From NCBI RefSeq assembly GCF_023715895.1, contig NZ_JAMBOO010000035.1, positions 1 to 41,128 on the forward strand: a stretch of 41,128 bases of DNA, read 5' to 3'. The DNA is from Domibacillus indicus (lineage in GTDB: Bacteria > Bacillota > Bacilli > Bacillales > Domibacillaceae). Positions 16,088-33,728 of this stretch are shown here, piece by piece. Position 1 is the first letter of the stretch. Every line of letters begins with the position of its first letter. Made by a program: the position numbers and the translations under genes. The notes under the pieces were generated by a model that saw nothing but the letters and a program-made list of their open reading frames with translations, made no database searches and had not been told where the DNA came from.

Positions 16088-16250
16088 GGCTGTCCTCCTC
16101 CGTATTACCTGATTGTATAGGTATTGAAATACTATCTGGAATCCTGAATAAGTAATCTCCTTCACGGTACAGGAGCATTTGGATTAACCGCATTCTCATA
16201 AAAGCAAGCCTTTTACATGCTGGCAATGTATTTGTTTGGTCTGTCGGAAA

Positions 16251-17225
16251 TTACTTTCCTGTATATTTTTTAATTTCAGCAAGCGCTTCCTCAACATTTT
16301 CTTTTGTCACAATTTCTGTACCTGAATCAATCCGTTTTTCTACTTCTTCCCCGTTCAGTTTTTTAGCTGCTGCTTCAACTGACAAGTAACCCATCTGGTA
16401 TGGATCTTGTGCTACTTCAGCAGTCAGCCCGCCTGCCTGAATGGACTCCAATCCTTCAGTCGTACCATCAAAGCCAACAACTAAAATATCCTTATTTTTC
16501 GATTCAACTGCACGTAAAGCACCTAATGCCATCGTTTCACTGGTAGTAAACACAGCTTTGATATCAGGATTAGATTGAAGAATATTTTGCATAACCGTTA
16601 AAGCTTTATCTTTATCGCTGTCAGCAGCCTGTACAGTTGCTACTTTAAGTCCAGCATCTTCCAATGCTTCCTCGGCTCCATTTGTCCGCTCGTCATGTGT
16701 AGTGCTTCCCAGCTGTCCCCGAATAATTGCAACTTTATCTCCTTTGCTAAGCTTATCCGCCAGGAATTCTCCGCCCATTTTTCCGGCACTGAAGTTTTCC
16801 GTTCCAACAAAACTCACTTTATCTTCATACTCGGCATCACTGTCTAGAAAAATTACTGGCGTGTCACTATCTTTATATTGTTGAAGTGCATTTAACACCG
16901 TTGTAGGCTGACTCGGCGCTAACACTAATGCACTCGTTCCGCTTGTGAACTGATCCTGAATCATTGAGATTTGCTGGTCTACCTGTGTTTCACTTGCTGG
17001 TGCCATTACATTCACATCAATTCCATACTTCTCACCAGCATCCATTGCACCGCGTTCTGCAATCTTCCAATACTCCTCGTTAGAAGCTTTTAAAATAACG
17101 GAGATTTTTTCACTGCCGCCATCGCTTCCACCTTGAGAAGAAGTTGCGCTGTTTTCTTCCCCACAACCAGCTAATAAAAGGCTTAATGACAGAGCAGCAC
17201 CAGATAATACTTTGATTTTTTTCAT
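16251..17225 (-). CDS. Sugar ABC importer binding lipoprotein (RbsB-like)
   Basis: A 324-residue solute-binding protein. The signal peptide ends at LLAGC (Cys at about 21), so it is a membrane-anchored lipoprotein. RbsB-type stretches: ISVILKASNEEYWKIAERGAMDAG, ALVLAPSQPTTV, SFVGTENFSAGKMGG and AVFTTSETMALGALRAVESKN. It is the first gene of the importer operon (binding protein, ATPase, permease). It is closely related to the protein at 6434, with the same length and the same C-terminal pattern IDSGTEIVTKEN. GGAGGAAG precedes ATG 17225. A fragment of a third copy of its 5' end lies at 19182-19236. The AAGCGCTT palindrome upstream is a likely operator. Confidence 0.87.
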   Translation of the reverse strand: MKKIKVLSGAALSLSLLLAGCGEENSATSSQGGSDGGSEKISVILKASNEEYWKIAERGAMDAGEKYGIDVNVMAPASETQVDQQISMIQDQFTSGTSALVLAPSQPTTVLNALQQYKDSDTPVIFLDSDAEYEDKVSFVGTENFSAGKMGGEFLADKLSKGDKVAIIRGQLGSTTHDERTNGAEEALEDAGLKVATVQAADSDKDKALTVMQNILQSNPDIKAVFTTSETMALGALRAVESKNKDILVVGFDGTTEGLESIQAGGLTAEVAQDPYQMGYLSVEAAAKKLNGEEVEKRIDSGTEIVTKENVEEALAEIKKYTGK

Positions 17226-17623
17226 TTTTCTTCCTCCAACCTATTTTTAAATTTTTAAATCTCTGATAATCAACTAACTTATTTTTTAGACTGAATGAAT
17301 TATGCGTCACATGACGGATTGCTTTTATGTTGAATAAAATGTTTTTCACCAAAAATTTTTGGATAGTTTTCCTTTTAGGAGTAATTTTGCTTTTTTCAAA
17401 GTGGTTATGTCGTTTCCTCCCTAATTTTCTTGAATGCTTCCGCTTTAATTAAAACCGTATATTCTTAAGAGTTAAATGGAAGCGCTTAACTAAATAGCCG
17501 GTAAAGGGTAGGATATTTCATTTAAAAGTGAATTAGCCTATTTTTGATCAAATACCACCTAGTTCTAACCCTATTAGCCACTATACTCGCTATTTCTTTG
17601 TTTATATTCATAGAAAGCATCTA
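17226..17623. other. Intergenic control region of the ABC-importer operon
   Basis: About 400 AT-rich bases between the binding-protein start and the end of LacI regulator E. Apart from the AAGCGCTT-centred site at 17477 I see no gene and no other clear repeat. It must hold the operon promoter. Confidence 0.5.
17477..17490. promoter_or_regulatory. LacI-type operator with AAGCGCTT core
   Basis: TGGAAGCGCTTAAC contains the perfect 8-bp palindrome AAGCGCTT. As I recall, the LacI-family inositol repressor IolQ of Geobacillus reads a site with the same core (RGWAAGCGCTTSCY); only the core agrees here. It lies about 250 bases before the binding-protein start. Regulator E, encoded just upstream, is the simplest candidate to bind it. 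Confidence 0.5.
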
Positions 17624-18628
17624 TTAAATATCACCTTTATGAGCAGTAGATTTTCGGACAATCAATTTAGGAGACAGCATCACACGTTGTTTCGATTCCT
17701 TCTTTTTTTCAATTTCCTCGATTAATAATTCGACTACTTTTTCTCCCATCTCTTCAATTGGCTGCGCAATTGTCGTGAGAGGCGGCTCACAGACTGTAGA
17801 CAGCACTGTATCATCAAATCCAATAATCGATACTTCATCCGGCACTTTTAGATTTAATTCGTGTGCACCCTGCATTGCCCCAATCGCCAAGGATTCGGTA
17901 GAGGCAAAAATGGCCGTTGGCGGATTGAATTTTTTTAGAAGGCTCATTATGGATTTTTTTCCTTCCTCAAGAGAGGTGTTGTTAGTCAGGACTAAGTTTT
18001 CATCATAGCTCAGCCCGGCTTCTTCCAGCGCTTTTTTATAACCATTTACTCTCGCTTGCAAAGTAGAAAAGACCGTGTCTTCCGTAATCATTGCAATCTT
18101 TTGATGACCCAGACTAATTAGGTGGTTTGTCGCTTCATATCCGCCTAAGTAATCGTCCACCAGTACAGTATTTACAGCCAAAGAAGGAACATCCCTAGAA
18201 AGCAGTGCAATGGGGATATCCGTTTTAATCAGCTCTTTAACGGCCTCCTCTCTTTTGAGGCCCGTTGCTACAATGATGCCATCCGAGTATTTTTGTTTCA
18301 GAATCGAAACGTATTCCACCTCGTTTTTCAAATCATTGTCTGTGCTGCAGATCAAAAGGCTATAACCATACCGTTTTACATGGTTTTCAATAACACGTGC
18401 GATTTCCGCCATAAACGGATTTGCAATATCGGGAATCAAAAGCCCGATGGTTTGAATACGCTTTCTCACAGATGCAGCAACACTAGGCTGATAATTTAAT
18501 TCCAGCATGATTGCTTTCACTTTGTTTCTGGTTTTTTCCGCAAGATTGCCTGTGTTATTAAGCACCTTAGATACAGTGGAAATAGATACTCCTGCTTTTT
18601 CAGCTACATCGTATATTGTGAATTTCAT
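17624..18628 (-). CDS. LacI-family transcriptional regulator E
   Basis: A 334-residue LacI/GalR repressor: helix-turn-helix FTIYDVAEKAGVSISTVSKVLNNTG at 3-27, hinge QPSVAASVRKR, sensor domain IQTIGLLIPDIANPFMAEIARVIEN to LSPKLIVRKSTAH. It is the intact counterpart of frameshifted regulator B (8874-9885); they are similar over their whole length and share the recognition helix. It sits directly upstream of the ABC-importer operon on the same strand and is likely its local regulator. A symmetric GTAAACGTTAC lies about 30 bases before its start and suggests autoregulation or CcpA control. The effector is unknown; an inositol or inosose is plausible. Confidence 0.88.
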   Translation of the reverse strand: MKFTIYDVAEKAGVSISTVSKVLNNTGNLAEKTRNKVKAIMLELNYQPSVAASVRKRIQTIGLLIPDIANPFMAEIARVIENHVKRYGYSLLICSTDNDLKNEVEYVSILKQKYSDGIIVATGLKREEAVKELIKTDIPIALLSRDVPSLAVNTVLVDDYLGGYEATNHLISLGHQKIAMITEDTVFSTLQARVNGYKKALEEAGLSYDENLVLTNNTSLEEGKKSIMSLLKKFNPPTAIFASTESLAIGAMQGAHELNLKVPDEVSIIGFDDTVLSTVCEPPLTTIAQPIEEMGEKVVELLIEEIEKKKESKQRVMLSPKLIVRKSTAHKGDI

Positions 18629-18658
18629 TCATTTTTCCCCTTCTATTCTCTCAGCAAT

Positions 18659-18669
18659 GTAAACGTTAC
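18659..18669. promoter_or_regulatory. Palindrome GTAAACGTTAC before regulator E
   Basis: An almost perfectly symmetric 11-mer with central CG, 31 bases before ATG 18628. With its flank (TGTAAACGTTACTC) it matches 11 of 14 cre positions, so it could be a cre site or an autoregulatory LacI-type operator. Confidence 0.45.
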
Positions 18670-18908
18670 TCTAACCTAAGTTTTGTTGAAGGCTAAAAGT
18701 ATCGAGTTATGGTCGAAAAAGCTGATTATGAGGCAAAAGCTGTTCATGTCGATTAGCTTTCAATTCATAAATAAAGAAAGGGATCTTCTTTTATTCAAAA
18801 CAATAAGTTCGCTGTATCGTAACATCCACTTAATTATTAGTTTAGTTATCCTCCGTGTGGAATTGAAAGCCTCCACCACCTCTAGATTGCCTATTCACAG
18901 TTAATTTT

Positions 18909-18922
18909 TTGTAGCGCTTTTA
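18909..18922 (-). promoter_or_regulatory. Weak cre-like / AGCGCT site
   Basis: On the minus strand TAAAAGCGCTACAA matches 11 of 14 cre positions and contains AGCGCT, like the operator core at 17477. It lies about 280 bases before regulator E in a stretch (18672-19181) where I recognise no intact gene. Confidence 0.3.
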
Positions 18923-18960
18923 AAACACTGGTTCATGTACCTCCTTTCTGTTTATTATCT

Positions 18961-18984
18961 ATTTAGGAAAGTTATTTCCTAAAT
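18961..18984. promoter_or_regulatory. Palindrome around AGGAAAG-TT-ATTTCCT (site 2)
   Basis: Arms ATTTAGGAAA and TTTCCTAAAT (10 bp) flank GTTA. The core resembles the site at 13401. It sits in the gap upstream of regulator E. Confidence 0.45.
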
Positions 18985-19070
18985 GATTATAAAAATAAAG
19001 GCGACTGATACTGAAAACAAAGAGAAAATCATCCTATAAAAAACTAAAATATTTAAAAATTCATAAATAA

Positions 19071-19090
19071 AGGGAAAGTTCTTTCTTTAA
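19071..19090. promoter_or_regulatory. Palindrome GGGAAAG-TT-CTTTCTT (site 3)
   Basis: Shares GGAAAG-TT-CTTTC with sites 1 and 2 but has imperfect outer arms. It lies just downstream (leftward) of the binding-protein relic. Confidence 0.35.
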
Positions 19091-19181
19091 TGTAGAGTGT
19101 ATATTCTCATGGTGCTAATGTCAATAATATTTTTCAGTTTTTTCTGATTATTTATAAAATATAGAAATTTTTTTGATAAAA

Positions 19182-19236
19182 TACTGGGTGACAGCATTGC
19201 ACTGGATAACACTTTGATTTTTTTCCTCCAACCTTT
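19182..19236 (-). pseudogene. Relic of a binding-protein gene 5' end
   Basis: About 55 bases match the ribosome binding site and signal-peptide codons of the gene at 17225. Decoded on the minus strand they read KKIKVLSSAMLSPSIL, against KKIKVLSGAALSLSLL. The GGTTGGAGGA leader is kept, but roughly ten bases including the start codon are missing. Similarity stops after the signal peptide. It is the stump of a deleted or recombined third binding-protein gene. Confidence 0.75.
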
Positions 19237-19381
19237 TTTCAAAGCGGCTAGAGCATGGGTTGATAAAACTTTGATCAAATTAATTTTTACCATTGTTTTA
19301 GTCATCCAGGGATAGCGTTTAAAATTCAGAAGATTCAATGTCCTTTTAAATCATCTAATCACCTCCCTACTTTTATTTTTT

Positions 19382-19397
19382 ACGCATACGAATGCGT
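19382..19397. promoter_or_regulatory. Operator ACGCATACGAATGCGT (family member 1)
   Basis: One symmetric pair is mismatched in an otherwise perfect 16-bp palindrome with central CG. Four relatives lie at 21303, 22406, 33394 and 33729. This one stands upstream of the binding-protein relic and may be left over from its promoter. Confidence 0.6.
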
Positions 19398-19481
19398 TGA
19401 TATTCAAAAAAATATTAAAATATTAGAAGGTAATAATGAATTCAAATATTTATCCTACACCACACATGTTAATCATAGATA

Positions 19482-19694
19482 ATTGCAGACATGTATAAAG
19501 CGTGCTGGGCGATCGAATTCTTTTTTTGCTGGATTAAGCAGAACTTGAATGTGCCTGTGTTATTTGGCACGTCCAAAAATGTCGTGTACAATCAGCTTTT
19601 TGCGGCATTGATTGCTTATATGCTACTCAAGCTGCTGTATAACCATACTAAAGTTTCCATTTCGCAAGCCAATCTGTCTCTTGTCGACTTTTAG
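19482..19694 (+). pseudogene. C-terminal relic of an IS4-family transposase
   Basis: The frame ADMYKACWAIEFFFCWIKQN, followed by LNVPVLFGTSKNVVYNQLFAALIAYMLL, matches the conserved C-terminal part of IS4-type DDE transposases (consensus Y-x-x-RW-x-IE-x-FF-x-WIKQ-x-L and GTS-x-NAV). The glutamate of the DDE triad is the E in AIEFFF. The N-terminal three quarters are missing, and two family arginines are replaced by Cys. The plus strand carries no other gene nearby. Confidence 0.8.
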
Positions 19695-19708
19695 TGTATG
19701 CTTCTTTG

Positions 19709-19741
19709 TAGGGCACTTCCGCTAAAATGGCCCTGTTTTTT
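19709..19741 (+). terminator. Possible terminator after the IS4 relic
   Basis: AGGGC at 19710-19714 pairs with GCCCT at 19730-19734, followed by GTTTTTT. The 5-bp stem is short, so this is tentative. Confidence 0.3.
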
Positions 19742-19756
19742 ATGAATGAATAGCAT

Positions 19757-20926
19757 TCAACCTTCACTTTGAGGAAAATGAATAGGCAGCGGATGAGGCC
19801 GGTTGAAATTGCTTTTTACGTGATAAAATTGGCCTTCCTTTGCAGACTTAAGTAAGCCTTCCATCACTTCCAAGGAGTGAAAAGCCATCTGGCCGCTTGC
19901 ACGCTCTACCCGTTTGTCCCGGATTGCATACGCCATATCAATCAGGCCTATTCCACGGCTGTTCTCTTGGTGGCTCGTTTCATTAAACGGGTGAATGATC
20001 GGAACTTCTTCCCATCGGCTTAGAGGCTTCTGTCTCGGCATTGCTTTCCATCTGTACTGCTCTTTTGTTTTCAATAAAATGGGTCCGCCAAACAAATTAG
20101 GGCCGTCTAAGGGGTCAATATCATTTATGCAAATCGTACCCTTTGTACCGTATATCTCTAATCTCGGAAGCTCTGAATCCCATACATCAAAGCTCATTAT
20201 AAATGTTGCAAGGGCATTGTTAGCAAACTGCAGTGTTCCTGTGATATGTGTCTCTACTTCTACTTCAATGACGTCTCCCTGCCTCGGTTCACTTTCAATA
20301 ATCCGTTTATCAAATGTCCTTTTGGCCATTGCAGAACAGCTTCGAACCGGTCCAATTAAAGACAAAAGTGCTGTTATATAGTAGGGGCCAATGTCAAGCA
20401 GCGGACCTCCTCCTGGCTTGTAAAAAAAATCAGGATTTGGATGGAATGACTCAGTACCATGATAAGCGACAAAAGCACTTGCTCCTACAATATCGCCGAT
20501 CGTACCTTCATCAATCAGTTTCCTGCATGTTTGAAGACGTCCTCCTAAAAAGGTATCAGGTGCACAGCCGACATATAGACCTTTTTCTTTTGCTAGATCA
20601 AGAATTTTCTTTCCATCTTCTAAAGCAGCCGCTAACGGTTTTTCCGTATATACATGCTTACCCGCTTCCAGTGCTTTAACCGTAAGCTCAGCGTGCACAG
20701 CTGGGACCGTTAAATTTAAAATAATATCGATTTCTGGGTCTTCTATCAATTCCTCAGCTGTTGCATATGCTTTTTCAATTTGATGCTGATCTGCTTTTTT
20801 GCGTGCCTTTTCAAGGTTCCTGCTTGCACAAGCTGCCACATGTACGATTTCATACTTCTTTAAGTTCTGAATATACACATCACTAATATCGCCTATCCCC
20901 AAAACACCAACGTTAAATTTTGTCAC
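19757..20926 (-). CDS. Gfo/Idh/MocA family oxidoreductase
   Basis: A 389-residue NAD(P)-dependent sugar dehydrogenase-like protein. The Rossmann motif is VGVLGIGDISDVYI (about 6-19), with the conserved TEKP containing K96. The C-terminal domain carries GGGPLLDIGPYYITALLSLIGP, so the usual His of D-x-x-x-H is a Tyr (D-I-G-P-Y), as in the subgroup that acts on larger or modified sugars. It is longer than IolG/IolX (about 342) through inserts such as EIYGTKGTICINDIDPLDG. It lies 422 bases downstream of LacI regulator F, and the ACGCAT-type operator at 21303 sits between, so it probably belongs to regulon F. The substrate is unknown; an inositol derivative or glycoside is possible. Confidence 0.75.
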   Translation of the reverse strand: MTKFNVGVLGIGDISDVYIQNLKKYEIVHVAACASRNLEKARKKADQHQIEKAYATAEELIEDPEIDIILNLTVPAVHAELTVKALEAGKHVYTEKPLAAALEDGKKILDLAKEKGLYVGCAPDTFLGGRLQTCRKLIDEGTIGDIVGASAFVAYHGTESFHPNPDFFYKPGGGPLLDIGPYYITALLSLIGPVRSCSAMAKRTFDKRIIESEPRQGDVIEVEVETHITGTLQFANNALATFIMSFDVWDSELPRLEIYGTKGTICINDIDPLDGPNLFGGPILLKTKEQYRWKAMPRQKPLSRWEEVPIIHPFNETSHQENSRGIGLIDMAYAIRDKRVERASGQMAFHSLEVMEGLLKSAKEGQFYHVKSNFNRPHPLPIHFPQSEG

Positions 20927-21348
20927 AGCTCGTTATCCTCCAAATTATAATATGTTTTTACAAAGCAAGACTTTAGTTCATTTTTGGCTTAGTAAACACT
21001 GTGAATCATCCTTCTTCTCACTGTAATTTGGAGCTGGACAGTAATCGCTATCATTAAAATAGTTTTGTCGTGTATTGTTATGGAGTTTCCCAATAGAAAA
21101 TTTCTGGAGCGCCTGCCAAAAAAGGATTCAAATATAACCTGTTTTGATATGACCTCCCGGCTTGTAACTCTCCAATGCCGTTCAGAGAAACGGTACCGAC
21201 GTTTTTAATCATTCGGTAAAATATTTAAATATTAGAAGGCTCGATGTATTTTTAACTCGTATATAATGCTTGTTTATTCCCCTCTCTGCTTTTCAATCTT
21301 TTACGCATACGGTTGCATAAAAGTTTAAGAATAAAGAAGTGGAATAAA
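20927..21348. other. Intergenic region before the oxidoreductase
   Basis: About 420 bases containing the operator at 21303-21318. A minus-strand frame at about 21070-21205 (MIKNVGTVSLNGIGELQAG...) is open for 44 codons, but I do not recognise it and it has no clear ribosome binding site; it may be a relic. Nothing else is seen. Confidence 0.35.
21303..21318. promoter_or_regulatory. Operator ACGCATACGGTTGCAT (family member 2)
   Basis: Imperfect palindrome with central CG, between regulator F and the oxidoreductase it probably controls. It shares the half-site ACGCATACG with the perfect member at 33729. Confidence 0.6.
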
Positions 21349-22380
21349 TTAATTATCTATTCCACACGACTCCCTAATTACCAGTGAAGGGCTTATCTCA
21401 AGCTTTAGCTTTGCTACTGGCTCAGTCGATTCAATCTTTTCTATTAATCGCTTGCATGTTAATGCTGCAATTTCCTTAGTCGGCTGATGCACTGTAGTTA
21501 GATACGGTTTATAACATGTGCATAAATCAATGTCATCAAACCCGACAACTGCTATATCCTGAGGCACATTAAATCCTGATTCTTTTAACGCTTGTATGGC
21601 TCCTAATGCCATCAAATCATTCTGTGCAAAAATAGCAGTGACGTCTTTTACCTTTTCTAAATGATTTAGTATTAATTCGTATCCTGATTGAAAAGTTTCA
21701 TTTCCATAGATCAGCATTTCTTCGTCATATTGAATATTATTATTAATCAAAGCCGCTTTAAACCCTTCAGTTCTTAACTCAAATTCACCACCAACATTAT
21801 TTGCTGAAATACATAATATTTTTTGGTGCCCTAATTTAATTAAATGTTCAGTGGCTATATATCCCCCCTTGAATTGATCTACACATACAAAATCTACTTC
21901 TTTCGCTTGATAAAAAGGAGGAATATATTTACAAAAAACAAATGGTACGTCCGTTTTTTCCAGCACATTTATTGTCTCATCATCTAACGATGGTTCTAAT
22001 ATGATAAGACCGTCTATCTTTTTAGCTGCAATAAGTCTTTTTATGTTATTTTTCTTTGTAAACCTATTTTGAAAAAACGAAATAATTACATCAAACTCCA
22101 AACGCTCCAAGCTTTCCAACAACTCATTCTGCCAAGATTTAAAGTGGGTGTCTACTCGAGAATCAAACAAAGTTTCCGGGAGAATTACACCAATTGTATA
22201 AGTTTTATTTGCGGCTAAACTTCTTGCATGTGAATTAAATTGAAAACCGTGCTCTTCTGCTATCTTTTTTATTCTCTTCTTTGTTTTCTCTGGTATCATT
22301 GGACTATCATTTAAGGATCTCGAAACAGTTGATTGGCTAACATTTGCCAGTTTTGCAAGATCTTTTGTAGTAATTGCCAT
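21349..22380 (-). CDS. LacI-family transcriptional regulator F
   Basis: A 343-residue LacI/GalR repressor: helix-turn-helix ITTKDLAKLANVSQSTVSRSLNDSPMI at 3-29, hinge FQFNSHARSLAANKT, sensor domain YTIGVILPETLFDSRVDTHF to LVIRESCGIDN. The recognition helix (Q-S-x-x-x-R) is unlike that of the other four regulators. An ACGCATCCGTATGCAT palindrome lies 26 bases before its start and a sister site lies just past its end, suggesting autoregulation plus control of the Gfo/Idh gene. The same operator occurs at 33394 and 33729 before the SDR/iolT operon, so regulator F probably links both loci. AAAGAAGGAAA precedes ATG 22380. Confidence 0.88.
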   Translation of the reverse strand: MAITTKDLAKLANVSQSTVSRSLNDSPMIPEKTKKRIKKIAEEHGFQFNSHARSLAANKTYTIGVILPETLFDSRVDTHFKSWQNELLESLERLEFDVIISFFQNRFTKKNNIKRLIAAKKIDGLIILEPSLDDETINVLEKTDVPFVFCKYIPPFYQAKEVDFVCVDQFKGGYIATEHLIKLGHQKILCISANNVGGEFELRTEGFKAALINNNIQYDEEMLIYGNETFQSGYELILNHLEKVKDVTAIFAQNDLMALGAIQALKESGFNVPQDIAVVGFDDIDLCTCYKPYLTTVHQPTKEIAALTCKRLIEKIESTEPVAKLKLEISPSLVIRESCGIDN

Positions 22381-22405
22381 CTATTTTCCTTCTTTCATAA
22401 AATTA

Positions 22406-22421
22406 ACGCATCCGTATGCAT
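22406..22421. promoter_or_regulatory. Operator ACGCATCCGTATGCAT (family member 3)
   Basis: Near-perfect 16-bp palindrome with central CG in the leader of regulator F, placed for autoregulation. Confidence 0.65.
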
Positions 22422-22832
22422 TTATAAAAACACTTTATTAAATTTTATAATATTTTGGTCAACAGCTGAAGTGTTTTTATATTTCCATAAAATTTTAATA
22501 TTCATACGTTTTGTTATCGTTTTCATTTAGGTAAATATACATAGGAGTGCATTAATTTTATTCATATTAAAATATTTATAATTTTTAGTCAATTCTTTTT
22601 TTGTTATTCTTCAGCATTTTTCTGCTTCTTTTCAGAATAAAAATTCAAGAATTTGTTTATATTAATTACTTTACTATTTAAAAAAGAAGGATCGTCATTC
22701 AGCCCCCACTTATCCTTACGCGCTACTCTGCACTGGATTTGAAGTGCGGTATTCTGGCGAAAATATCTGGTCGATAATGATGTTTTGAGTCCCGTATCGG
22801 TTAAGTATACTCCTTTGATTCTGAAAGCAACC
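22422..22832 (-). other. AT-rich gap holding an unassigned open frame
   Basis: From 22846 (inside the end of the tautomerase gene) down to about 22605 the minus strand has an 80-codon stretch without stops, in a frame different from the tautomerase. It reads [20 protein letters not shown], then STRYFRQNTALQIQCRVARK and DKWGLNDDPSF. It lacks an ATG and a ribosome binding site. The residue mix looks protein-like rather than random, so it may be a gene relic, but I do not recognise it. The remainder (22422-22600) is AT-rich with nothing visible. Confidence 0.3.
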
Positions 22833-23222
22833 TCAAAGATCTTCTGTTAAAAACTGCGCCTTTCCAAATCCAAAACTCCAGTCTGCATCTTCATTGACTG
22901 TAATAGAAACCATTACATCTTTGGGATCAATATTGCAGTCTTTCCGTAATTCCTCGACAATATATTTGTACAAATTTTGCTTTTGTTCTTCTGTTCGCTT
23001 TTTACTGGTGATGCTAATCAACACCATATCTTTTGAGCGCTCAAACCCTAGTCCTGTGTCTTCCATAATCATTTCATGAGCAGGGTGCTGATGCACTATC
23101 TGATAGCGGTCACGTTCGGGTACTTCGAATGCTTTAAGCATGGCACGATGAACAGCATCAAGCAGCTTCTTTAATTCTTCTTCTGTTCTTCCTTTTACAA
23201 TATCAAAGCGTAGTAATGGCAT
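22833..23222 (-). CDS. Tautomerase-superfamily protein
   Basis: A 129-residue protein of the 4-oxalocrotonate tautomerase superfamily (larger, Tautomerase_2-like branch). It begins [20 protein letters not shown], so Pro2 becomes the N-terminal catalytic proline after methionine removal. The typical second repeat [22 protein letters not shown] follows, and the protein ends with [10 protein letters not shown]. Such enzymes catalyse keto-enol shifts or related chemistry. Its ATG lies 20 bases inside the end of iolJ, so it is translationally coupled to it and is the last gene of the iol operon. A role in handling keto intermediates of inositol breakdown is an attractive inference. I know of no counterpart in the B. 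subtilis iol operon. Confidence 0.8.
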
Positions 23223-24108
23223 CTTCTACCCTTCCGTTTCCTTTATTTATTATAACACCTCGTCCACTCGTCCCAAATTCTTTCATTTTTGCTTTGGCCG
23301 CTTCTTTCACTGCTTCAATCGCTGGTCTCAAGATCAAACGCGGCTCATACACATCGGGTTTTTCATTTAATGTCTGACGAATAGAAGTTGTCCACGCTTG
23401 AATATTTTCCGTGTTCACATTAATTTTAGCGTGACCCAATTCAATTGCACGCTGAAGCTGATGTAATGGAATACCCGATCCGCCGTGTAGTACCAGTGGA
23501 ATGTCCGTTTTATCCATGATTTCTTTCATTTCTTCAAAACCAAGCTGCGGTTCACCCTGATATGGTCCGTGAACAGAACCAAGAGCGGCAGCCAGTGCAT
23601 TAATGCCTGTTTCTTCGACAATGCGGATGCATTCATCAATATCCGCATATTGAATGCCACCAACCATTCCATCTTCCTGACCGCCCACTGTACCGACTTC
23701 AGCTTCGACCGAGACATCCTTTACTTTTGCATATGCCACGACCTCTTTTGTCATCGCGATATTTGCGTCAATTGACCCATGTGATCCATCGATCATCACC
23801 GATGTAAAACCGGCATCGATCGCCCGTTTGCAGCGTTCGATACTCATGCCATGATCCAAATGAAGTGCAACCGGAACAGTAATATTTAGTTCTTCTGTTA
23901 ATGCCTTGACCATAGATGATATCGTCTTGAAACCGCCAAGATAATCAACAAGCCGGTCCGAAGCAGCCAAAATGATCGGTGCCTGTTCCTCTTCCGCAGC
24001 AAGCAAAAAAGCCTGGGCAAATTCAAGGCCATTGATATTAAACTGTCCTACTGCATACCTGTCTTTTTTTGCTTTTATCAACATCTCTCTCATTGAAACT
24101 AAAGCCAT
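23203..24108 (-). CDS. iolJ: 6-Phospho-5-dehydro-2-deoxy-D-gluconate aldolase
   Basis: A 301-residue class II (zinc) aldolase that splits the phosphorylated intermediate into dihydroxyacetone phosphate and malonic semialdehyde. Very similar to B. subtilis Iol[52 protein letters not shown] (with D85 and zinc ligand H86), [30 protein letters not shown] and VLHGGSG. The C-terminus, after [11 protein letters not shown], carries about twelve extra residues ([17 protein letters not shown]) that overlap the tautomerase start. The gene is separated from iolD by 232 bases that contain the iolE relic. AGGAGAGA precedes ATG 24108. Confidence 0.93.
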
Positions 24109-24207
24109 TTAATGAATCTCTCCTTTCACCTAGTTAGCCATTAAAAAATTCACTTTGCGGCCTATATCTTGCCCTTAAGTGCTATACGTTTGCTCGGATA
24201 CAATTAT

Positions 24208-24301
24208 TTAAATGACACAACGCCAATTCTCTTTCAAAATAACGGGTTCAGGAAAGAAGCCGCCGACTTCCGTCCCTTGAACCACTGCTACTGTAATATA
24301 G
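24208..24301 (-). pseudogene. iolE: Relic of iolE (inosose dehydratase)
   Basis: In the gap between iolD and iolJ a minus-strand frame reads [20 protein letters not shown] and then KENWRCVI, followed by a stop. B. subtilis IolE has, near its N-terminus, [20 protein letters not shown] (from memory). The eleven residues [11 protein letters not shown] are identical and the flanks are similar. Only about 30 of roughly 297 codons survive, without start, metal ligands or the rest of the barrel. The position between D and J is the ancestral location of iolE in the order A-B-C-D-E-...-J. The dehydration step must therefore be supplied from elsewhere, or the pathway is incomplete. Confidence 0.85.
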
Positions 24302-24340
24302 TTTAACAAGTTAATATCCTATATCGTGTGCAATCTTCTC

Positions 24341-26251
24341 TTAATACATCTTCGCCGTTTCTAGTTTTTCTGCTCTCGCGGCATAGGCTTTTTGAACGCT
24401 TTCAAACTCGGATACTTCAGCGAGACCAACGTTCCACCATCCATCATAGCCATCCGACATTGTTTTCGGAAGCACTTTCATATCAATCAATGTGGAAACA
24501 GACTGCTTTTTCGCATCTTCAAGCGCTGCTTTCAATTCTTCTACTGTGTTGGCTTTGTAAGATTTTGCTCCGTAAGCTTCTGCCACTTTTGCGTAATCGA
24601 TGTTCATAATTTGATTATCATGTGTACGGAATTCACAGAAGTATGTTCCGCTTCCATTACCCATCTGCAGGTTATTAATACATCCATAGCCAGAGTTATC
24701 AAACAGGAGAATGTTGATTTTTTTATCGTACTGAAGCGCTGTTACAAGCTCTGTGTGAAGCATGAGGAAGCTGCCGTCTCCGACTGCCGCATATACTTCA
24801 CGGTCCGGGTGAGCCAGTTTCGCACCCAGTGCACCGGCCACTTCATATCCCATGCAGGAATATCCGTATTCAAGATGGTACGTATTCGGCACATCTGAAT
24901 GCCATAAGCGCTGCAGGTCGCCCGGAAGGGACCCGGCTGAACCGATGACGATGCTGTCCGGTGCGACTGCTTCATTGGCCGCAACCAAAGCAGCCGTTTG
25001 GGTGAATTCAGTGCCCAGCGCATCGGCGTACTCATTCATCGTTTCCTGGGAAAACTGGCCCTTGATTTCCGGTGTGAAGTTTTCACGGTTAAATGTTACG
25101 TTCGCCAGACGGTCACGTTCTGCCAGCCATTCCTCTTTCCATGCTGAAAGCAGGCCGCCAAATGCGGTTTTATAGTCTCCCAAAAGAGGTGCCAGCTGTT
25201 CAAGCGCGGTTTTTGCATCGGCAACTACCTGGAATGCGTCCAGCTTATAAGCCTGCATGCGGCTGACATTAATGTTTAAGAATGATGTTTTGTCAAAATC
25301 AAACTGCGTTTTGGATGATGTCGTGAAATCTGTATAGCGTGTGCCGACACCGATTACAAGGTCTGTATCACGCGCCACTTTGTTTGCAGCCGACGTGCCC
25401 AAGATTCCAAGACCGCCCAGGTTAGTTGGAAATGAGACTTCCACTGTTGATTTCCCGGCCTGTGTTTCTACAAGCGGGATATTATGTTTTTCAGAGATTT
25501 GTTTTAAAATGTCACGGGCACCTGAATAACGGGCACCGCCGCCGACAATAATGACGGGTTTTTTGCTTGCTTTGATCCGCTCTGCTGCGCCCTGCAGCTC
25601 GCGTTCTACCGCCGGCTTGCGGTCCAGATAATGAACACGTTTGTCAAAGAAACGCTCATCATAATCAAATGCTTCCCCTTCGACATCCTGTGCAATGCAG
25701 ATCGTCGCTGGGCCGGCTTTAGCCGGATCGGTCATCACTTCAAACGCACGGATGAGTGCGGACATTAACTGCTCCGGACGTGTTACGCGGTCCCAGTAGC
25801 GGGAAACCGCCATAAACGCTTCGTTTGTGGTTACCGCTGTGCTGTGTTCATGCTCCAGCTGCTGAAGCACTGGATCAGGCTGGCGCGTCGCAAAGGTATC
25901 CGCCGGAAGCAAAAGAACCGGAATGTTGTTCGCAAACGCGGTTCCCGCTGCTGCGATCAAGTTTGCTGAACCGGGACCCGCAGATGTCGTGATCGCATAA
26001 ATTTTGCGGCGGAGCATTTCGCGGCTGTAGGCGATGGCCGCCTGCGCCATGCCCTGCTCATTCTTTCCCTGATAGACTTTCAAATGGCCGGCATCCTGCT
26101 CAAGCGCCTGGCCGATCCCAAGCACATTTCCATGGCCAAATATGTTGAATACGCCTTCGACAAAAGGGGTTTCTTCGCCGTCCACATGGATGTACTGCTG
26201 ATTTAAAAATTTAATTAACGCTTGCGCGGTTGTTAATCGAATAGTTCCCAT
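24341..26251 (-). CDS. iolD: 3D-(3,5/4)-trihydroxycyclohexane-1,2-dione hydrolase (ThDP-dependent)
   Basis: A 636-residue thiamine-diphosphate enzyme that opens the inositol ring to give 5-deoxyglucuronic acid. The three-domain layout is that of acetolactate-synthase-like enzymes. The N-terminal domain has FNIFGHGNVLGIGQALEQD and GPGSANLIAAAGTAFANNIPVLLLPAD. The central domain has KPVIIVGGGARYSGA and DLVIGVGTRYTDF. The C-terminal cofactor domain has the motif GDGSFLMLHTELVTALQYDK, followed by ILLFDNSGYGCINNLQMGNG. Length agrees with B. subtilis IolD (637). It follows iolC by 29 bases. GAGGTGAG precedes ATG 26251. It is the core enzyme of the pathway. Confidence 0.95.
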   Translation of the reverse strand: MGTIRLTTAQALIKFLNQQYIHVDGEETPFVEGVFNIFGHGNVLGIGQALEQDAGHLKVYQGKNEQGMAQAAIAYSREMLRRKIYAITTSAGPGSANLIAAAGTAFANNIPVLLLPADTFATRQPDPVLQQLEHEHSTAVTTNEAFMAVSRYWDRVTRPEQLMSALIRAFEVMTDPAKAGPATICIAQDVEGEAFDYDERFFDKRVHYLDRKPAVERELQGAAERIKASKKPVIIVGGGARYSGARDILKQISEKHNIPLVETQAGKSTVEVSFPTNLGGLGILGTSAANKVARDTDLVIGVGTRYTDFTTSSKTQFDFDKTSFLNINVSRMQAYKLDAFQVVADAKTALEQLAPLLGDYKTAFGGLLSAWKEEWLAERDRLANVTFNRENFTPEIKGQFSQETMNEYADALGTEFTQTAALVAANEAVAPDSIVIGSAGSLPGDLQRLWHSDVPNTYHLEYGYSCMGYEVAGALGAKLAHPDREVYAAVGDGSFLMLHTELVTALQYDKKINILLFDNSGYGCINNLQMGNGSGTYFCEFRTHDNQIMNIDYAKVAEAYGAKSYKANTVEELKAALEDAKKQSVSTLIDMKVLPKTMSDGYDGWWNVGLAEVSEFESVQKAYAARAEKLETAKMY

Positions 26252-26280
26252 TTTCTACTCACCTCTTAATGAATTGTTTT

Positions 26281-27264
26281 TTACACGTATACGGCAGATG
26301 CAATCAGCTGCTCAATCTCAGAAACAAGGGGCATCGCATCAGACGAGCTGTGTTTGCTGACTACAATCGATGCGGAAGCACTGCCATATTTCAAAGCAGT
26401 TTCAATGTCTTTCCCGCTGACCAGGGCATAAAGGAAAGCCGATGCGTAGGAATCACCTGCACCGAATGTTTTCAATACGTTTGTTTTGTACGCCTGCGCG
26501 CGGAATACTTCTCCCGATTTTGCATATGCGTACGACCCTTCTACTCCGTGTTTGATGACAACAAGATCGGCTGAATGCTTGAATAGATTTTGAATCGTTT
26601 CGTTGTTGTCGCCGCCCTGGATGTTTTCCATCACATCAAACTCATCGCGTGTGCCGATGACGATATCGGACTGTTCAGCCACAAGCGAATAATAAACAGC
26701 TGTTTCTTCCGGCGACTGCCATGTGTACGGACGGTAGTCAAGTTCGAACACAATTTTCACGCCGTGTTTTTTCGCCAGGCTGACCGATTTCAAAACGGCT
26801 TCGCGTGACGGGCTTTTTGCCAGCGCTGTACCGGAAACAAGCAGAATTTTCGCTTGTTTAATATAGTCTTCGCTTACCTCAGATGGCTCAAGGTATAGAT
26901 CTGCTACATCGTCACGGTACATCAGGATGCTGCACTCATCCGGGCTTAAAATTTCCGTGAAGGCAAGACCGGTTTTATGACCTTCTTTATCTGTGACCAT
27001 GTTCGACGTATCCACGCCGACTTCACGCATGTATTTTTCAATAAAACGCCCATGCTGGTCATCCGCTAATTTCCCGATAAAGCCTACCTTCAAGCCAAGC
27101 TTCGCGCTGCCGATCGCGACGTTTGCGGGTGAGCCGCCGACGTATTTCGTAAACGTCATCGTCTCTTCCATTGGCATGTTGTATTCGTTTGCATTTAAGT
27201 CGATGCAGGCACGCCCAATGGCGATTACATCAAGTTCTTTTTCATTATTGAATGTATAGTTCAT
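26281..27264 (-). CDS. iolC: 5-Dehydro-2-deoxygluconokinase
   Basis: A 327-residue PfkB/ribokinase-family kinase that phosphorylates 5-dehydro-2-deoxy-D-gluconate at C6. Motifs: the N-terminal GGSPANVAIGSAKLGLKVGFIG, the substrate region DELDYRPYTW-like FELDYRPYTWQSPEETA, and the C-terminal anion-hole/catalytic motif TFGAGDSYASAF with the base Asp in GAGD. Length and sequence follow B. subtilis IolC (325). A good site (AAAGGAGCGG) precedes ATG 27264. The DNA just upstream contains a duplicated and partly deleted copy of the iolB end and the iolC start (see the repeat at 27251-27605). Confidence 0.95.
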   Translation of the reverse strand: MNYTFNNEKELDVIAIGRACIDLNANEYNMPMEETMTFTKYVGGSPANVAIGSAKLGLKVGFIGKLADDQHGRFIEKYMREVGVDTSNMVTDKEGHKTGLAFTEILSPDECSILMYRDDVADLYLEPSEVSEDYIKQAKILLVSGTALAKSPSREAVLKSVSLAKKHGVKIVFELDYRPYTWQSPEETAVYYSLVAEQSDIVIGTRDEFDVMENIQGGDNNETIQNLFKHSADLVVIKHGVEGSYAYAKSGEVFRAQAYKTNVLKTFGAGDSYASAFLYALVSGKDIETALKYGSASASIVVSKHSSSDAMPLVSEIEQLIASAVYV

Positions 27265-27605
27265 TCGGTTTCACCGCTCCTTTAATTGGGTTAACGTTTT
27301 AAAATCCACTCATGGTCTGGATCATTATGAAATTTCTAAATGCGTGTCAGGCCGGCCATTACGTTTAAGTAATAAGACTCGTAGCCTCCCGGTACGCCAA
27401 CTGATGCAATACTGCTGTTTTCACCTCGAATGTGTAGTTCATCCGGGTTCACTGCTTCTTTAGTCAGGTTGACGTTTTAAAATCCACTCATGGTCTGGAT
27501 CATTGTAAAATTTCCAAATACGTGTCGGGCCAGCCATCACATTTAAGTAATAAGACTCATAGCCATCTGGTACGCCGACTGGATGGTATCCAGCTGGAAC
27601 AAGCA
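27251..27605. repeat. Diverged 178-bp tandem duplication at the iolC/iolB junction
   Basis: Unit 1 (about 27251-27427) and unit 2 (about 27429-27605) align with a constant offset of 178 bases over at least 27251-27400. Anchors include AAAATCCACTCATGGTCTGG at 27301 and 27479, and AAGTAATAAGACTC at 27367 and 27545. Unit 1 holds the real iolC start plus a dead copy of the last codons of iolB (YESYYLNVMAG, a stop at the following RI-stop, then NDPDHEWILKR). Unit 2 holds the real iolB end plus a dead copy of the iolC start codon region. The end of unit 1 has lost bases relative to unit 2. Confidence 0.85.
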
Positions 27606-28284
27606 CGACATCACTGTTTTCAACGGTCATCGTTTCATCAATCGACCGGTCATCCGTATATACACGCTGGAACACGAAGCCCTGCGGCGGATTCATTTCA
27701 TGATAGTAAGATTCTTCTAAGAATGACTCATCCGGCAGGTTATCCTGGTCATGTTTGTGCGGTGGGTAGCTCGACCAGTTTCCGCTTTCTGTGTAAACTT
27801 CTACGACAAGCAGGCTGTTTGCACGTGGGTCGGAATCCGGCAGGATATTATGTACCATCCGTTTATTGCTTAAAATGCCGCGGTTTTCAATGCCGACCTC
27901 CGAAGCTTTAATGAGTACAGTCGGCAGCTGCTCCTGGGAAGGGGAATAGCATAGTGCTACCCGGGCAGCCGTTGCGCCTTCTACGTGGAAAGTTTTATCG
28001 TTGGAAACATATACGCTGTCTGTCGGCACTTTCTCAAACACATTTTCACGCGTGCCAAGGCTGCGGAATTCTTCGCTTCCTTCGGTTACGTGAATTTTGC
28101 CTGTCAGGGCGACAATGCAGCATTCTGTTTTATTTAATGATTCAGTGTAAGTGGCGCCGGGAGCCAGATCAATGACTTTAAATCCGACATATTCGAGGGG
28201 AGAGTTTTCTTGTGTAACGTCATGGACAAGTGTGACGCCTTCTGATTGTTCTTTTTTCATTGGTTTTTGAAGCAAGCGGCTCAT
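27460..28284 (-). CDS. iolB: 5-Deoxy-glucuronate isomerase
   Basis: A 274-residue bicupin isomerase that converts 5-deoxyglucuronic acid to 5-dehydro-2-deoxygluconate. Signatures: PLEYVGFKVIDLAPGATYTE, LTGKIHVTEG, WSSYPPHKHD followed by EESYYHEMNPPQGF, and VLVPAGYHPVGVPDGYESYYLNVMAG with metal-binding histidines and Glu. I start at ATG 28284 (MSRLLQKPMKKEQ) because AGGAGG lies 8 bases upstream; the longer open frame to 28356 adds 24 residues without family similarity. It follows iolA by 76 bases. B. subtilis IolB has 271 residues. Its last codons form unit 2 of a tandem duplication. Confidence 0.93.
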   Translation of the reverse strand: MSRLLQKPMKKEQSEGVTLVHDVTQENSPLEYVGFKVIDLAPGATYTESLNKTECCIVALTGKIHVTEGSEEFRSLGTRENVFEKVPTDSVYVSNDKTFHVEGATAARVALCYSPSQEQLPTVLIKASEVGIENRGILSNKRMVHNILPDSDPRANSLLVVEVYTESGNWSSYPPHKHDQDNLPDESFLEESYYHEMNPPQGFVFQRVYTDDRSIDETMTVENSDVVLVPAGYHPVGVPDGYESYYLNVMAGPTRIWKFYNDPDHEWILKRQPD

Positions 28285-28360
28285 GTTATGTACCTCCTGA
28301 TTTTTTCTTGAATGGCCTGCTGCCCGGGTTGAACCGGACAGCCAGGACCCATTCAAGCTA

Positions 28361-29830
28361 TTACTTCACGTAGCGTGCAGTGACCATTTTCTTGCGTGTA
28401 AAGAATTCAACCCCGTCTTTACCATTCGCATGAAGATCGCCGTAGAATGAATTTTTGTAGCCTGAGAATGGGAAGAATGCCATTGGCGCCGGCACCCCAA
28501 CGTTAATGCCCAGCATGCCTGCGTGGATCGTTTCACGGAACTGGCGTACCGCTGCTGCGCTGTCTGTGTACAGGCAGGCACCATTTGCCAGTGTAGAAGC
28601 ATTGGCTGTCTCCACACCTTCTGCCAGGTCTTTTACGCGGACGACTGAAAGAACGGGTGCAAAGATTTCATCCTGCCAGATCGTCATCTCCTGTGTCACG
28701 TTATCGAAGATGGTGGCGCCAAGGAAGTAGCCGTCTCCTTTTGCGGCTTCGTCTTCGCGGCCGTCACGCACAAGCGTGGCACCCTGCTCGATACCGGCTT
28801 CAATGTAGCCGATTGTACGCTGTTTCGCATTTTCGCGGATGATTGGGCCAAGGAATACGCCGTCATCTAAACCGTTGCCAATTTGAATATTGTCGGCTGC
28901 TTCTTTTAATTTTGCGATAAACTCATCGGCAATGCTTTCTTCTACTGCTACAACGGCTGCAGCCATGCAGCGCTCACCCGCTGAACCAAAAGCGGCGGCT
29001 GTTACTTCTTTTGCGGCCAGGTCAAGATTTGCATCTGCCAGCACGATCGAGTGGTTTTTCGCACCTGCAAGCGCCTGTATGCGTTTCAAGTTCGCTGCTC
29101 CTGTTTTGTATACGTATTCTGCAACTGGCTGTGAGCCAACAAATGAGATGGCTTTCACTTTTGGGTGCTCAAGAAGGCCGTTTACGACATCATGCGCTCC
29201 GTTTACGATGTTTAGTACGCCGTCTGGAAGGCCGGCTTCTTTGAATAGATCGACTAATTTCGCTGCCAAAAGCGGCGTACGTTCAGATGGTTTCAATACA
29301 AATGTGTTACCGCATGCGATTGCCAGTGGATACATCCAACAAGGAACCATCATCGGGAAGTTAAATGGTGTGATGCCGCCCACTACTCCAACCGGGTAAC
29401 GGTACATGCCTGATTCAATATTTGTAGCGATGTCTGGAAGCTGGCTGCCCATCATCAATGTCGGTGCACCGGCTGCGAATTCTACGCATTCAATCCCGCG
29501 CTGCACTTCGCCCATGGCTTCTGACAAGCTTTTTCCGTTTTCAATCGTGATCAGCTTCGCCAGCTCTTCCCAGTTATCAACAAGAAGTTGCTGATATTTG
29601 AAAAGAATGCGTGCACGCTTTGGAACAGCCGTCTGCGACCAAGTTTTAAACGCTTCGCTTGCGGCCTGCACAGCACGGTCTACGTCTTCTTTTGTAGAAA
29701 GCGGCACCTGGGCAATTTCTTCGCCTGTTGCAGGATTTACAACCGTTTCGGTCTGGCTGGACAGAGATTCCACCCATTCTCCATTTATGTAGTTTTGTAA
29801 TGTTTTTACCTCGGAATTAATTGCTGACAT
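28361..29830 (-). CDS. iolA: Malonate/methylmalonate-semialdehyde dehydrogenase (CoA-acylating)
   Basis: A 489-residue aldehyde dehydrogenase that turns malonic semialdehyde into acetyl-CoA and CO2, the last step of the pathway. Features: NAD domain [21 protein letters not shown] (about 146-166), nucleophile C288 in [10 protein letters not shown], and R111 and R287, which correspond to the arginines reported to bind the carboxylate in B. subtilis IolA (487 residues). C-terminal motif [22 protein letters not shown]. It is the first gene of the core operon, behind an 18-bp palindrome (29869) and a cre-like site (30044). AGGAGG precedes ATG 29830. Confidence 0.95.
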
Positions 29831-29868
29831 GTATATATTCCTCCTTAGAAATAGATGTTCTTATTGAA

Positions 29869-29886
29869 ATTGAAATCGATTTCAAT
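29869..29886. promoter_or_regulatory. 18-bp perfect palindrome upstream of iolA
   Basis: ATTGAAATCGATTTCAAT is perfectly symmetric with a central CG, 39-56 bases before the iolA start, where a LacI-type repressor would block the core operon promoter. Its sequence differs from the GATTAATC, AAGCGCTT and ACGCAT families, so it may belong to yet another regulator (C or one outside the window). Confidence 0.75.
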
Positions 29887-30043
29887 ATTATGTTAATAAT
29901 AATGCTCGCTGATGGTTGAGATGGATCTATTTACAAGCATTTTCCTATTTGAATAGAGTTTTATTTTACCTATACCGTTTTAATAAAGATTCATATAAAA
30001 AACCTCTCAGCTCAACACTGGAAAAGCGTCATCGATACAGGAA

Positions 30044-30057
30044 TATCAACGTTTACA
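30044..30057 (-). promoter_or_regulatory. Candidate cre site upstream of iolA
   Basis: On the minus strand TGTAAACGTTGATA matches 13 of 14 positions of TGWAANCGNTNWCA. It lies 215 bases before iolA, between it and the end of iolT. CcpA control of the iol operon is known in B. subtilis. Confidence 0.55.
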
Positions 30058-30077
30058 TCTAACATAGGTGTGTAATC

Positions 30078-31514
30078 TTAAAATTTATTTACCTGAGATT
30101 TTATATGATTAATACCATCATATTTATCTGTTTTGTCATCATAATAAGTACGGAAGGACTCTTCAATTTCTTCCAGTGTGCGACCTTTAGTTTCAGGTAA
30201 GAACTTCGCCATTAAGAAGATAGATACACATCCTACCCCTGCGAAGATAAAGAATGTTACCGACAAACCCATTTTATCAAGCATGACAGGGAACAATAAA
30301 CCAATGACAAAGTTTGTCATCCAAAGGAAGAATACACTAACACCCATGCCAAATCCTCTTAAGCGTGACGGGAAAATTTCGGATAGTGAAACCCATAATA
30401 CTGGCCCAATTGCCCCTTGCATGAAAGCGAGAAATGTGACGGTTAGTGCCAGCATCACATATGGAAGCGCCTCAGATGATACAACCGTAGATGAAAGGAT
30501 CCCAATTAGTAGAAGGGTTAAGGTTGTTCCTGTTAAACCCGTCAACATCATAGGGCGACGTCCGACTCTACCAAGAAGCCAAATCCCTACAATTGTCGCT
30601 AAAACCGAAATGACACCGTTTGCAACATTGCCGATTAATGCAGCAGACGTTGCAAAACCTGCTTGTCTGAGAATTTCAGTTCCATAATACATGATTGAGT
30701 TAACGCCAGTAGCTTGAGTAACAATGGCGATAGCAATTCCGATAAATACGATGCGACGCATCCATGGCACAGTAAGATCTTTAAACGATGCTTCTTTCAA
30801 ATCAGATTCTGCAGCCAAAGCTGTTTGAATCTCTTTGAGTTCAGTCAGCGCTTGCTCTTCTGTACGTATCTTACGGAGTATACGCAGCGCTTCTTCGTTT
30901 CTTCCCTTTTTCACAAGCCATCGGGGACTTTCTGGTACTTTAAGCATACCAAAGAATAAAAGAATTGCTGGTACTCCTGCAATACCTAACATGTAACGCC
31001 AAACTCCTTCGCCACTTAATAGGTTACCAAGAATAGCATTAAAGACGAAGGCTAACAATTGCCCACCTACAATCATTAACTCATTACGGGTAACCAATTG
31101 GCCTCTTCTATCAGAGGGCGACATTTCAGCTATAAATGTAGGAACTGCTACTGATGCTCCGCCAACAGCCATACCTAGTAAGAAGCGGAAGATAACCATT
31201 CCCGTTACGCTTGGTGATAGGGTACAACCAAGCGTAGCAATAAAGAAAAGGATTGAAAGGAAAAGGATATTTTTACGCCGTCCAATACCATCCGAAAGCC
31301 GACCACCAAATACAGCTCCTACCGCAGCCCCTAAAAGAAGAACACTTGTAACAAGACCTTCTGTGAATGAAGTTAGATTAAAATCGTCCGACATATAAGG
31401 CAAAGCCCCATTGATAACGCCGGTATCATAACCAAATAGAAGACCTCCGAATGTTGAGACTAAGACAATGGTGCTCAAAAATGATATGTGATTTTGATTA
31501 GCCTGTTTGTTCAT
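30078..31514 (-). CDS. iolT: myo-Inositol proton symporter (MFS sugar porter)
   Basis: A 478-residue major-facilitator transporter of the sugar-porter family with twelve predicted membrane helices. Signatures: GGLLFGYDTGVINGALPYM in helix 1, GRLSDGIGRRKN after helix 2, PESPRWLVKKGRNEEAL before the central loop, QATGVNSIMYYGTEIL in helix 7, and the C-terminal PETKGRTLEEIEE. It closely follows B. subtilis IolT (473 residues), the main inositol uptake system. It is the third gene of the SDR/TIM-barrel/iolT operon (84 bases after the TIM barrel) and precedes iolA by 247 bases. Another sugar or polyol cannot be excluded, but the context is strong. Confidence 0.88.
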   Translation of the reverse strand: MNKQANQNHISFLSTIVLVSTFGGLLFGYDTGVINGALPYMSDDFNLTSFTEGLVTSVLLLGAAVGAVFGGRLSDGIGRRKNILFLSILFFIATLGCTLSPSVTGMVIFRFLLGMAVGGASVAVPTFIAEMSPSDRRGQLVTRNELMIVGGQLLAFVFNAILGNLLSGEGVWRYMLGIAGVPAILLFFGMLKVPESPRWLVKKGRNEEALRILRKIRTEEQALTELKEIQTALAAESDLKEASFKDLTVPWMRRIVFIGIAIAIVTQATGVNSIMYYGTEILRQAGFATSAALIGNVANGVISVLATIVGIWLLGRVGRRPMMLTGLTGTTLTLLLIGILSSTVVSSEALPYVMLALTVTFLAFMQGAIGPVLWVSLSEIFPSRLRGFGMGVSVFFLWMTNFVIGLLFPVMLDKMGLSVTFFIFAGVGCVSIFLMAKFLPETKGRTLEEIEESFRTYYDDKTDKYDGINHIKSQVNKF

Positions 31515-31598
31515 ATTCTTGCCCCTTTCCTTTCTGTTGATAATTGATCAGGGAACGTAATCAAGGTCTCTTTTTCAATTAAATTCAATGTATTCTTT

Positions 31599-32543: not shown

Positions 32544-32561
32544 GATAAAAACTCCTTTCTA

Positions 32562-33350: not shown

Positions 33351-33393
33351 TTTTTTCACCATTTTCTATGTAGTATTTTTAGAATTTCACTTT

Positions 33394-33409
33394 TCGCATA
33401 CGCTTGCAT
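33394..33409. promoter_or_regulatory. Operator TCGCATACGCTTGCAT (family member 4)
   Basis: Imperfect member of the ACGCATACGTATGCGT family, 44 bases before the SDR start, overlapping the expected promoter or leader of the SDR/TIM/iolT operon. Confidence 0.6.
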
Positions 33410-33535
33410 AAATCAGCAAAAAAATAAGAAGAAGGATCACTAAATCTAAAGGTCTATTAAAGATCATTCCCTGATTACTAATACATATCTAATCTCAAGT
33501 TTTTGACTATCGATTATATGGATTATATTTTCTTT

Positions 33536-33549
33536 ATCAAACGCTTACA
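33536..33549 (-). promoter_or_regulatory. Weak cre-like site
   Basis: On the minus strand TGTAAGCGTTTGAT keeps the TGTAAGCGTT half of cre, but only 11 of 14 positions of TGWAANCGNTNWCA. It lies upstream of the SDR operon between the two ACGCAT operators. Confidence 0.4.
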
Positions 33550-33728
33550 TATTAACGCAAAAATTTATCTATTAAGTTGCCGCGCTATTGTAAGTCAAGA
33601 TTTGTATTTGAAATCATAGGAATCGCATTTGGACATATCGAACTTTAGATTCACTTGCCCTTGTATTCGCCATTTTTGCAATTTTTCTATGGTAACTGCC
33701 TAAGTAGCTTCTTCCTCTTTTATCAGTT

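Follow-up and report, generated by a model that had tools for sequence, protein, structure and literature searches.

Remains of a decayed iolE gene in a partly redundant second iol operon of Domibacillus indicus

The inositol operon of Bacillus subtilis has the gene order iolABCDEFGHIJ. The order A-B-C-D-(E)-...-J is common to this operon and to two operons of the Domibacillus indicus genome described here, one on contig C93 and one on contig C110; unlike the B. subtilis and C93 operons, the latter is without a working iolE. Incomplete clusters have been reported before: according to the available sections of a genome survey (PMC9430895), among 1,024 genomes in which only three of iolB, iolC, iolD and iolE are clustered, the fourth gene lies elsewhere in 810, and a frameshift in an iol gene is mentioned as a possible explanation where the fourth is missing. 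In those sections the survey of split clusters counts gene presence and describes no remnant in the slot, as is seen in the present case. For Propionibacterium freudenreichii, the available excerpts of another study (PMC4437456) state that certain copies of iolE have been lost or disrupted, that others are proposed to complement them and that the strains still use inositol. The likeness lies in the loss of a redundant iolE while another copy exists; however, the losses described in these excerpts involve a transposase insertion and a gene fusion, while the D. indicus gene, from another phylum, decayed through small deletions and point changes, and the operon next to it appears to have recombined with its second copy. 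No published account of this relic was found in the literature on Domibacillus inositol, iolE pseudogenes and paralogous-operon gene conversion, which was judged largely by title and abstract.

The window, i.e., the whole stretch of 41,128 nt that was analyzed, is the entire contig C110 of a 5.08 Mb genome in 180 contigs. Its minus strand carries four intact genes: iolA (28361-29830; 587 bits with TIGR01722), iolB (27460-28356; 346.6 bits with TIGR04378), iolC (26281-27264; 407.7 bits with TIGR04382) and iolD (24341-26251; 862.8 bits with TIGR04377). Upstream of iolA, a sugar-porter gene of the iolT-like type (30078-31514, minus strand) scores 394.9 bits with TIGR00879 and has 65% identity to the transporter of the C93 operon. 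Directly downstream of the iolE stump lies a class II aldolase gene (23203-24108, minus strand), presumably iolJ judging by its place. It has 77% nucleotide identity to the C93 copy and codes for 301 rather than 283 amino acids, with a C-terminus longer by about 17 residues; judged by its sequence, it is an old paralogue of that copy. Between iolB and iolC, a partial tandem duplicate of the 3′-end of iolB (27265-27459; about 170 nt, 83-84% by cross-matches) is present, also in a second genome of the species (G041), while in the C93 operon these two genes are only 26 nt apart.

Comparison of the two strains gave dN/dS values of 0.02-0.05 for the iolA-D genes of the window operon (0.04 for iolD), indicating purifying selection; thus, the operon is probably in use. 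For the window iolJ, dN/dS was 0.54, from 17 differences; on these small numbers its constraint appears relaxed, and the gene may be losing its function too.

The gap between iolD and iolJ (24340-24109, minus strand) measures 232 nt. Its similarity to iolE is well above chance: the local score against the intact iolE of G008, a genome of the same genus, was 90, while 1000 dinucleotide shuffles of the gap gave a mean of 20.3 and a maximum of 31, none of them reaching it. The initial annotation, which had recognized an iolE stump at 24208-24301 with an intact motif, was therefore right in the identity, the position and the motif. The main remnant, established by blastn and by the shuffles, extends from 24309 to 24202 (minus strand) and corresponds to iolE nt ~88-195 (~108 nt); it includes the motif QGTEVGGFF. 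Blastn matches were obtained with five iolE-bearing loci among six searched (73-80% identity, E-values from 1e-7 to 7e-17), and the blocks aligned with the C93 iolE have 62/80, 17/23 and 4/4 identical bases. A deletion of one nucleotide at 24230/24229 disrupts the reading frame. By codon position, 26/35, 31/35 and 22/33 bases match the C93 gene, a pattern consistent with a former coding constraint that has since been blurred.

A piece of the start region, iolE nt 1-12, is retained at 24324-24313 (minus strand), with ATA at the position of the start codon: the blastn match continues from iolD for 12 nt into iolE, and the piece is also found in global alignments with the iolE genes of the loci L039, L041 and L042; this short piece was not recovered in the MAFFT alignment. 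A probable third remnant, weak and recognized by alignment, lies at about 24203-24171 (minus strand), corresponding to iolE nt ~305-337 (VSEQTYS); it is preceded by an internal deletion of about 110 nt. Its identity is 26/33 with the iolE on contig C30 of the genome G010 and 18/22 with the C93 gene, and when this block is scored along with everything that follows in the gap, 33 of 1000 shuffles do as well, which is weak. The remainder (24170-24109, minus strand) contains a sequence resembling a ribosome-binding site, AAAGGAGA, ahead of iolJ. After 24164, the tail resembles iolE no more than random sequence does (884 of 1000 shuffles scored at least as high), and for this reason the tail is not claimed as iolE; an additional block proposed there (LMAN) is ruled out on the same count. 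A single deletion as the origin of the gap is also ruled out, the alignment requiring several.

Overall, about 150 of the 894 nt of iolE are recognizable, with ATA at the start position, a frameshift and several stops. The remnant shows DNA similarity to iolE in the slot following iolD, while a full-length open reading frame with a start codon is lacking: it is a pseudogene, not a gene. The estimate of about 30 codons with the start gone was thus correct as to the presence of a remnant, which is, however, somewhat longer, and part of the start region persists in altered form.

An intact iolE is present elsewhere in the same genome, as one of the two options offered by the initial annotation had it. 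The whole genome was scanned with the IolE model TIGR04379, which has a curated cut-off of 290 bits: among 12 matches, only one exceeded the cut-off, the C93 gene (C93:355634-356491), with 387.6 bits over positions 2-288 of 290 and no stops. The nearest solved structure to its product is the IolE 3cny in the PDB (E-value 1e-128). The next-best match, C33:39925-40827, reached 153.3 bits, and two TIM barrels coded in the window had 36.8 and 29.6 bits in the same scan. The C33 product was considered as a second IolE and rejected: below the cut-off, it is IolE-like only. The C93 iolE comes after a second iolD, in an operon of the order A-B-C-D-E-transporter-iolG-like-TIM barrel-J, where the transporter, iolG-like and J genes are named by similarity to the window genes and the barrel by weak similarity to IolE. 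Therefore, the ancestral slot had been defined imprecisely as lying between iolD and iolJ: in the C93 operon, the transporter, iolG-like and TIM barrel genes stand between iolE and iolJ, while in the window operon no genes separate the relic from iolJ. The window operon is a spare, partly redundant second iol operon and that on C93 is the main one. Since IolE is a soluble enzyme, we infer that the C93 product would serve both operons in trans. In the genus set of 13 genomes, an iolE over the cut-off was found in seven, including all six with an iolD match at an E-value of 1e-200.

The same relic occurs in G041, the second genome of the species, which is assembled in two contigs. This genome has two iolD genes, C1:413248-415155, with 98% identity to the window iolD, and C2:864141-866048; both operons are present, and the C1 locus holds the same stump between iolD and iolJ. 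The G041 stump is further decayed: QGTEVGGFF is changed to QGREVGGF, one nucleotide is inserted, causing a frameshift, and the gap contains 16 nt of extra sequence. Twelve of the 232 aligned gap bases differ between the strains, ten of them in the 70 nt beside iolD and two in the other 162. The window type of iolJ plus gap was found in only two of the 13 genus genomes (G000 and G041), at 97-100% identity; the other 11 contain stretches matching iolJ and gap at 64-88%. Because the same stump is present in both strains, the loss of iolE is older than their split. An unmutated motif had been read as the sign of a recent loss, and a complete iolE had been thought possible in a sister strain; neither idea held, as the sister strain shares the stump with a mutated and frameshifted motif, and the clean motif in the window is thus no clock.

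These data also bear on the possibility that the gap is an assembly error or belongs to a contaminating contig, the real iolE being complete. The draft nature of the assembly, with 180 contigs, an estimated contamination of 3.72% and the window being one whole contig, would leave room for it; yet the two-contig, independent assembly of G041 has the same gap content in the same iolD-iolJ place with changes of its own, and the window segments 10866-19225 and 19233-34121 match G041 at 92.3% and 95.9%. An assembly deletion, which had been named as a possible refutation of the stump, is accordingly extremely unlikely. Next to no probability remains for a similarity due to a short conserved motif in common, with no iolE relic at all: although the gap tail is unlike iolE and the third block is weak by itself, the match is seen in the DNA itself, runs through about 108 nt and the start region with the pieces in their proper order, occupies the place that iolE has behind iolD in the genus, and no shuffle reached the gap score.

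It had further been proposed that a TIM barrel coded in the window, at 31599-32543 or at 10252-11082, took over inosose dehydration and made iolE dispensable. The former gene (minus strand) codes for a xylose-isomerase-like barrel of the IolE superfamily (PF01261); it precedes iolT-iolA-B-C-D, has the same orientation and stands near the head of the gene row, and a dN/dS of 0.09 indicates that it is kept. However, it reaches only 37.1 bits with TIGR04379, over a partial length, against the cut-off of 290, its solved relatives are all distant (best 2zds, E-value 2e-19), and, while related genes occur in all 13 genus genomes (36-65% identical outside the species' own copy at the same locus), these include genomes without an iolE over the cut-off and without an iolD match. 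The product of 10252-11082 (minus strand), an epimerase/IolO-like barrel with 122.7 bits on NF041099 (cut-off 300) and 35.7 bits on TIGR04379, matches mostly ketose 3-epimerases in the PDB, and also TM_0416; a third window barrel (5408-6241) has 22.8 bits on TIGR04379. Nine proteins were aligned: at the first His of the motif FHHHMGT, which is presumably a metal ligand of IolE, all four IolE and the two IolE-like proteins (from C33 and from contig C25 of G010) have His, while Glu replaces it in all three window barrels. On these sequence features, the window barrels appear to be poor candidates for IolE and, as an intact IolE is present in the genome, no take-over is needed; such a replacement is very unlikely. 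It is also improbable, if somewhat less so, that iolA-B-C-D-J without iolE represents a maintained module which, in Domibacillus as well as in other Bacillaceae and some Listeria, receives its substrate from an alternative dehydrating route (e.g., an SDR and a TIM barrel at the head of the gene row, acting on another cyclitol), with the relic marking its origin from a classical operon.

The gap 24340-24109 is thus, with high probability, a decayed iolE pseudogene in a partly redundant second iol operon, in a genome where the C93 IolE would perform inosose dehydration and where the spare iolA-D genes have been kept and probably partly homogenized. The latter aspect emerges from the identity between the two operons of the genome: 94.0% in iolA-B and 89.9% in iolC-D, up to 12 nt inside iolE, as compared to 76.4% in the stump and 77.0% in iolJ. 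Between the strains, dS is 0.15-0.29 in iolA-D and 0.03-0.05 in iolJ, the tautomerase gene, iolT, the barrel gene TIM_31599 and the SDR gene SDR_32562, and divergence is about 1-3% in the flanks (~21-24 kb on one side, ~30-34 kb on the other); a LacI gene downstream of iolJ (21349-22380) has a dS of 0.09, higher than the 0.03-0.05 of most other flanking genes. In a rooted A-D tree, the spare operon stands beside the main operons of its species and of G008, inside the G010 copies, while in the iolJ tree the window gene falls outside all other Domibacillus iolJ sampled, its exact place being weakly supported. Site patterns grouping the sequences by locus, by strain or across both were counted as 172:0:0 in iolJ, 81:6:12 in iolD, 35:2:6 in iolC, 7:7:2 in iolB and 17:8:13 in iolA. 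For iolA and iolB, paralogues within the genome are 93.7 and 95.3% identical, compared to 93.9 and 95.0% for the orthologues of the two strains, and the border of this pattern lies at the stump; iolC and iolD seem to show older exchange and patches only.

These comparisons suggest an exchange of sequence, probably by gene conversion, between the spare iolA-D genes and the main operon that reaches as far as the stump, while iolJ beyond it seems not to have taken part; the exchange would span the only stretch that both operons have in common at high identity, ending in the stump. It would be partial or mostly old, because in the tree of the concatenated iolA-D genes the two spare operons cluster by locus (support 100); single-gene trees are weakly supported. 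The divergence of iolA-D could instead have been raised by recombination with unsampled strains. It also speaks against the exchange reading that, within the main operon, iolG is only 93.1% identical between the strains, as compared to 97-98% for the iolE, transporter, TIM barrel and iolJ genes, as does the raised dS of the LacI gene downstream of iolJ. Outside iolA-D, a second island of high divergence lies at 13500-20000, where dS between the strains is 0.2-0.5, compared to 0.03-0.05 in most flanking genes. It includes a LacI regulator gene, a gene of the Gfo/Idh type and transporter genes, and may have arisen by recombination or by exchange with paralogous genes.

The following course of events would fit these observations. 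Several internal deletions, the loss of the start codon, a frameshift and stops may have destroyed the spare iolE before the two strains diverged; this loss would have cost little, since the C93 IolE can act in trans on the intermediates of both operons. Selection would have kept the spare iolA-D genes, and recombination, probably in the form of gene conversion, would have partly homogenized them with their main-operon counterparts. As the homology ends at the stump, iolE would not be refreshed and would decay on. The cause is an ordinary one, i.e., a redundant gene has decayed in one copy of a duplicated pathway, and the exchange pattern around the relic is its sole slightly unusual part. The locus is a small natural case of gene loss at the homology edge of duplicated operons, where genes past the edge decay or drift; it also cautions that an “essential” gene missing from one operon means little before the whole genome has been searched.

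Other iolD loci were surveyed in the best 80 of at least 579 confirmed loci, i.e., those nearest to the window iolD, where a full iolE was defined by more than 40% identity and more than 200 amino acids. A full iolE lies within 150 nt downstream of iolD in 42 of these 80 and elsewhere in the fetched stretch in 24, at a distance of 183-259 nt in three of the latter; in the remaining 14 it was not found in the fetched stretch, which the end of the locus cuts short in two of them. Among these 14, 11 belong to genomes with an iolE over the cut-off elsewhere. The other three (L113, L115 and L126) are from Listeria with iolD, and their genomes gave no TIGR04379 match at an E-value of 1e-20; in L113, an aldolase gene directly follows iolD. 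Nine chosen neighbor ORFs, eight from the three Listeria loci and one from Neobacillus, contained no xylose-isomerase-like barrel by Pfam. iolJ directly follows iolD (within 700 nt) in 12 of the same best 80 loci, five of them among the 14 without iolE, so that the adjacency of the two genes is not peculiar to the window.

Loss of iolE from spare operons recurs, with three separate cases: the window species, the C25 operon of G010 and Ectobacillus funiculus. In the second operon of G010, on C25, about 7 nt of iolE are joined to the last ~108 nt of that gene ahead of iolJ; the gene was lost by a different, apparently single deletion. Orthology with the window stump is ruled out, as the gap join is different and the iolJ of this operon falls among those of the main-operon type. 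Directly upstream of iolA in this operon, a gene codes for an IolE-like TIM barrel (L040 14530-15420) with 171.3 bits on TIGR04379 and an HPH motif; on these scores, it would be more plausible as a substitute dehydratase than anything coded in the window. E. funiculus has a broken iolE directly after iolD (L064 4705-5003) and four other iolE over the cut-off in its genome, which is an independent decay of iolE in a redundant operon. The repeated loss of this gene from spare iol operons is mildly useful for the annotation of inositol use.

A minor observation concerns another region of the window, where a LacI-type regulator gene is found at 8874-9740, extending upstream to about 9900. Pfam detects only the ligand-binding part in 8874-9740, and the DNA-binding half lies just upstream in another frame; it is either a frameshifted regulator or a sequence error.
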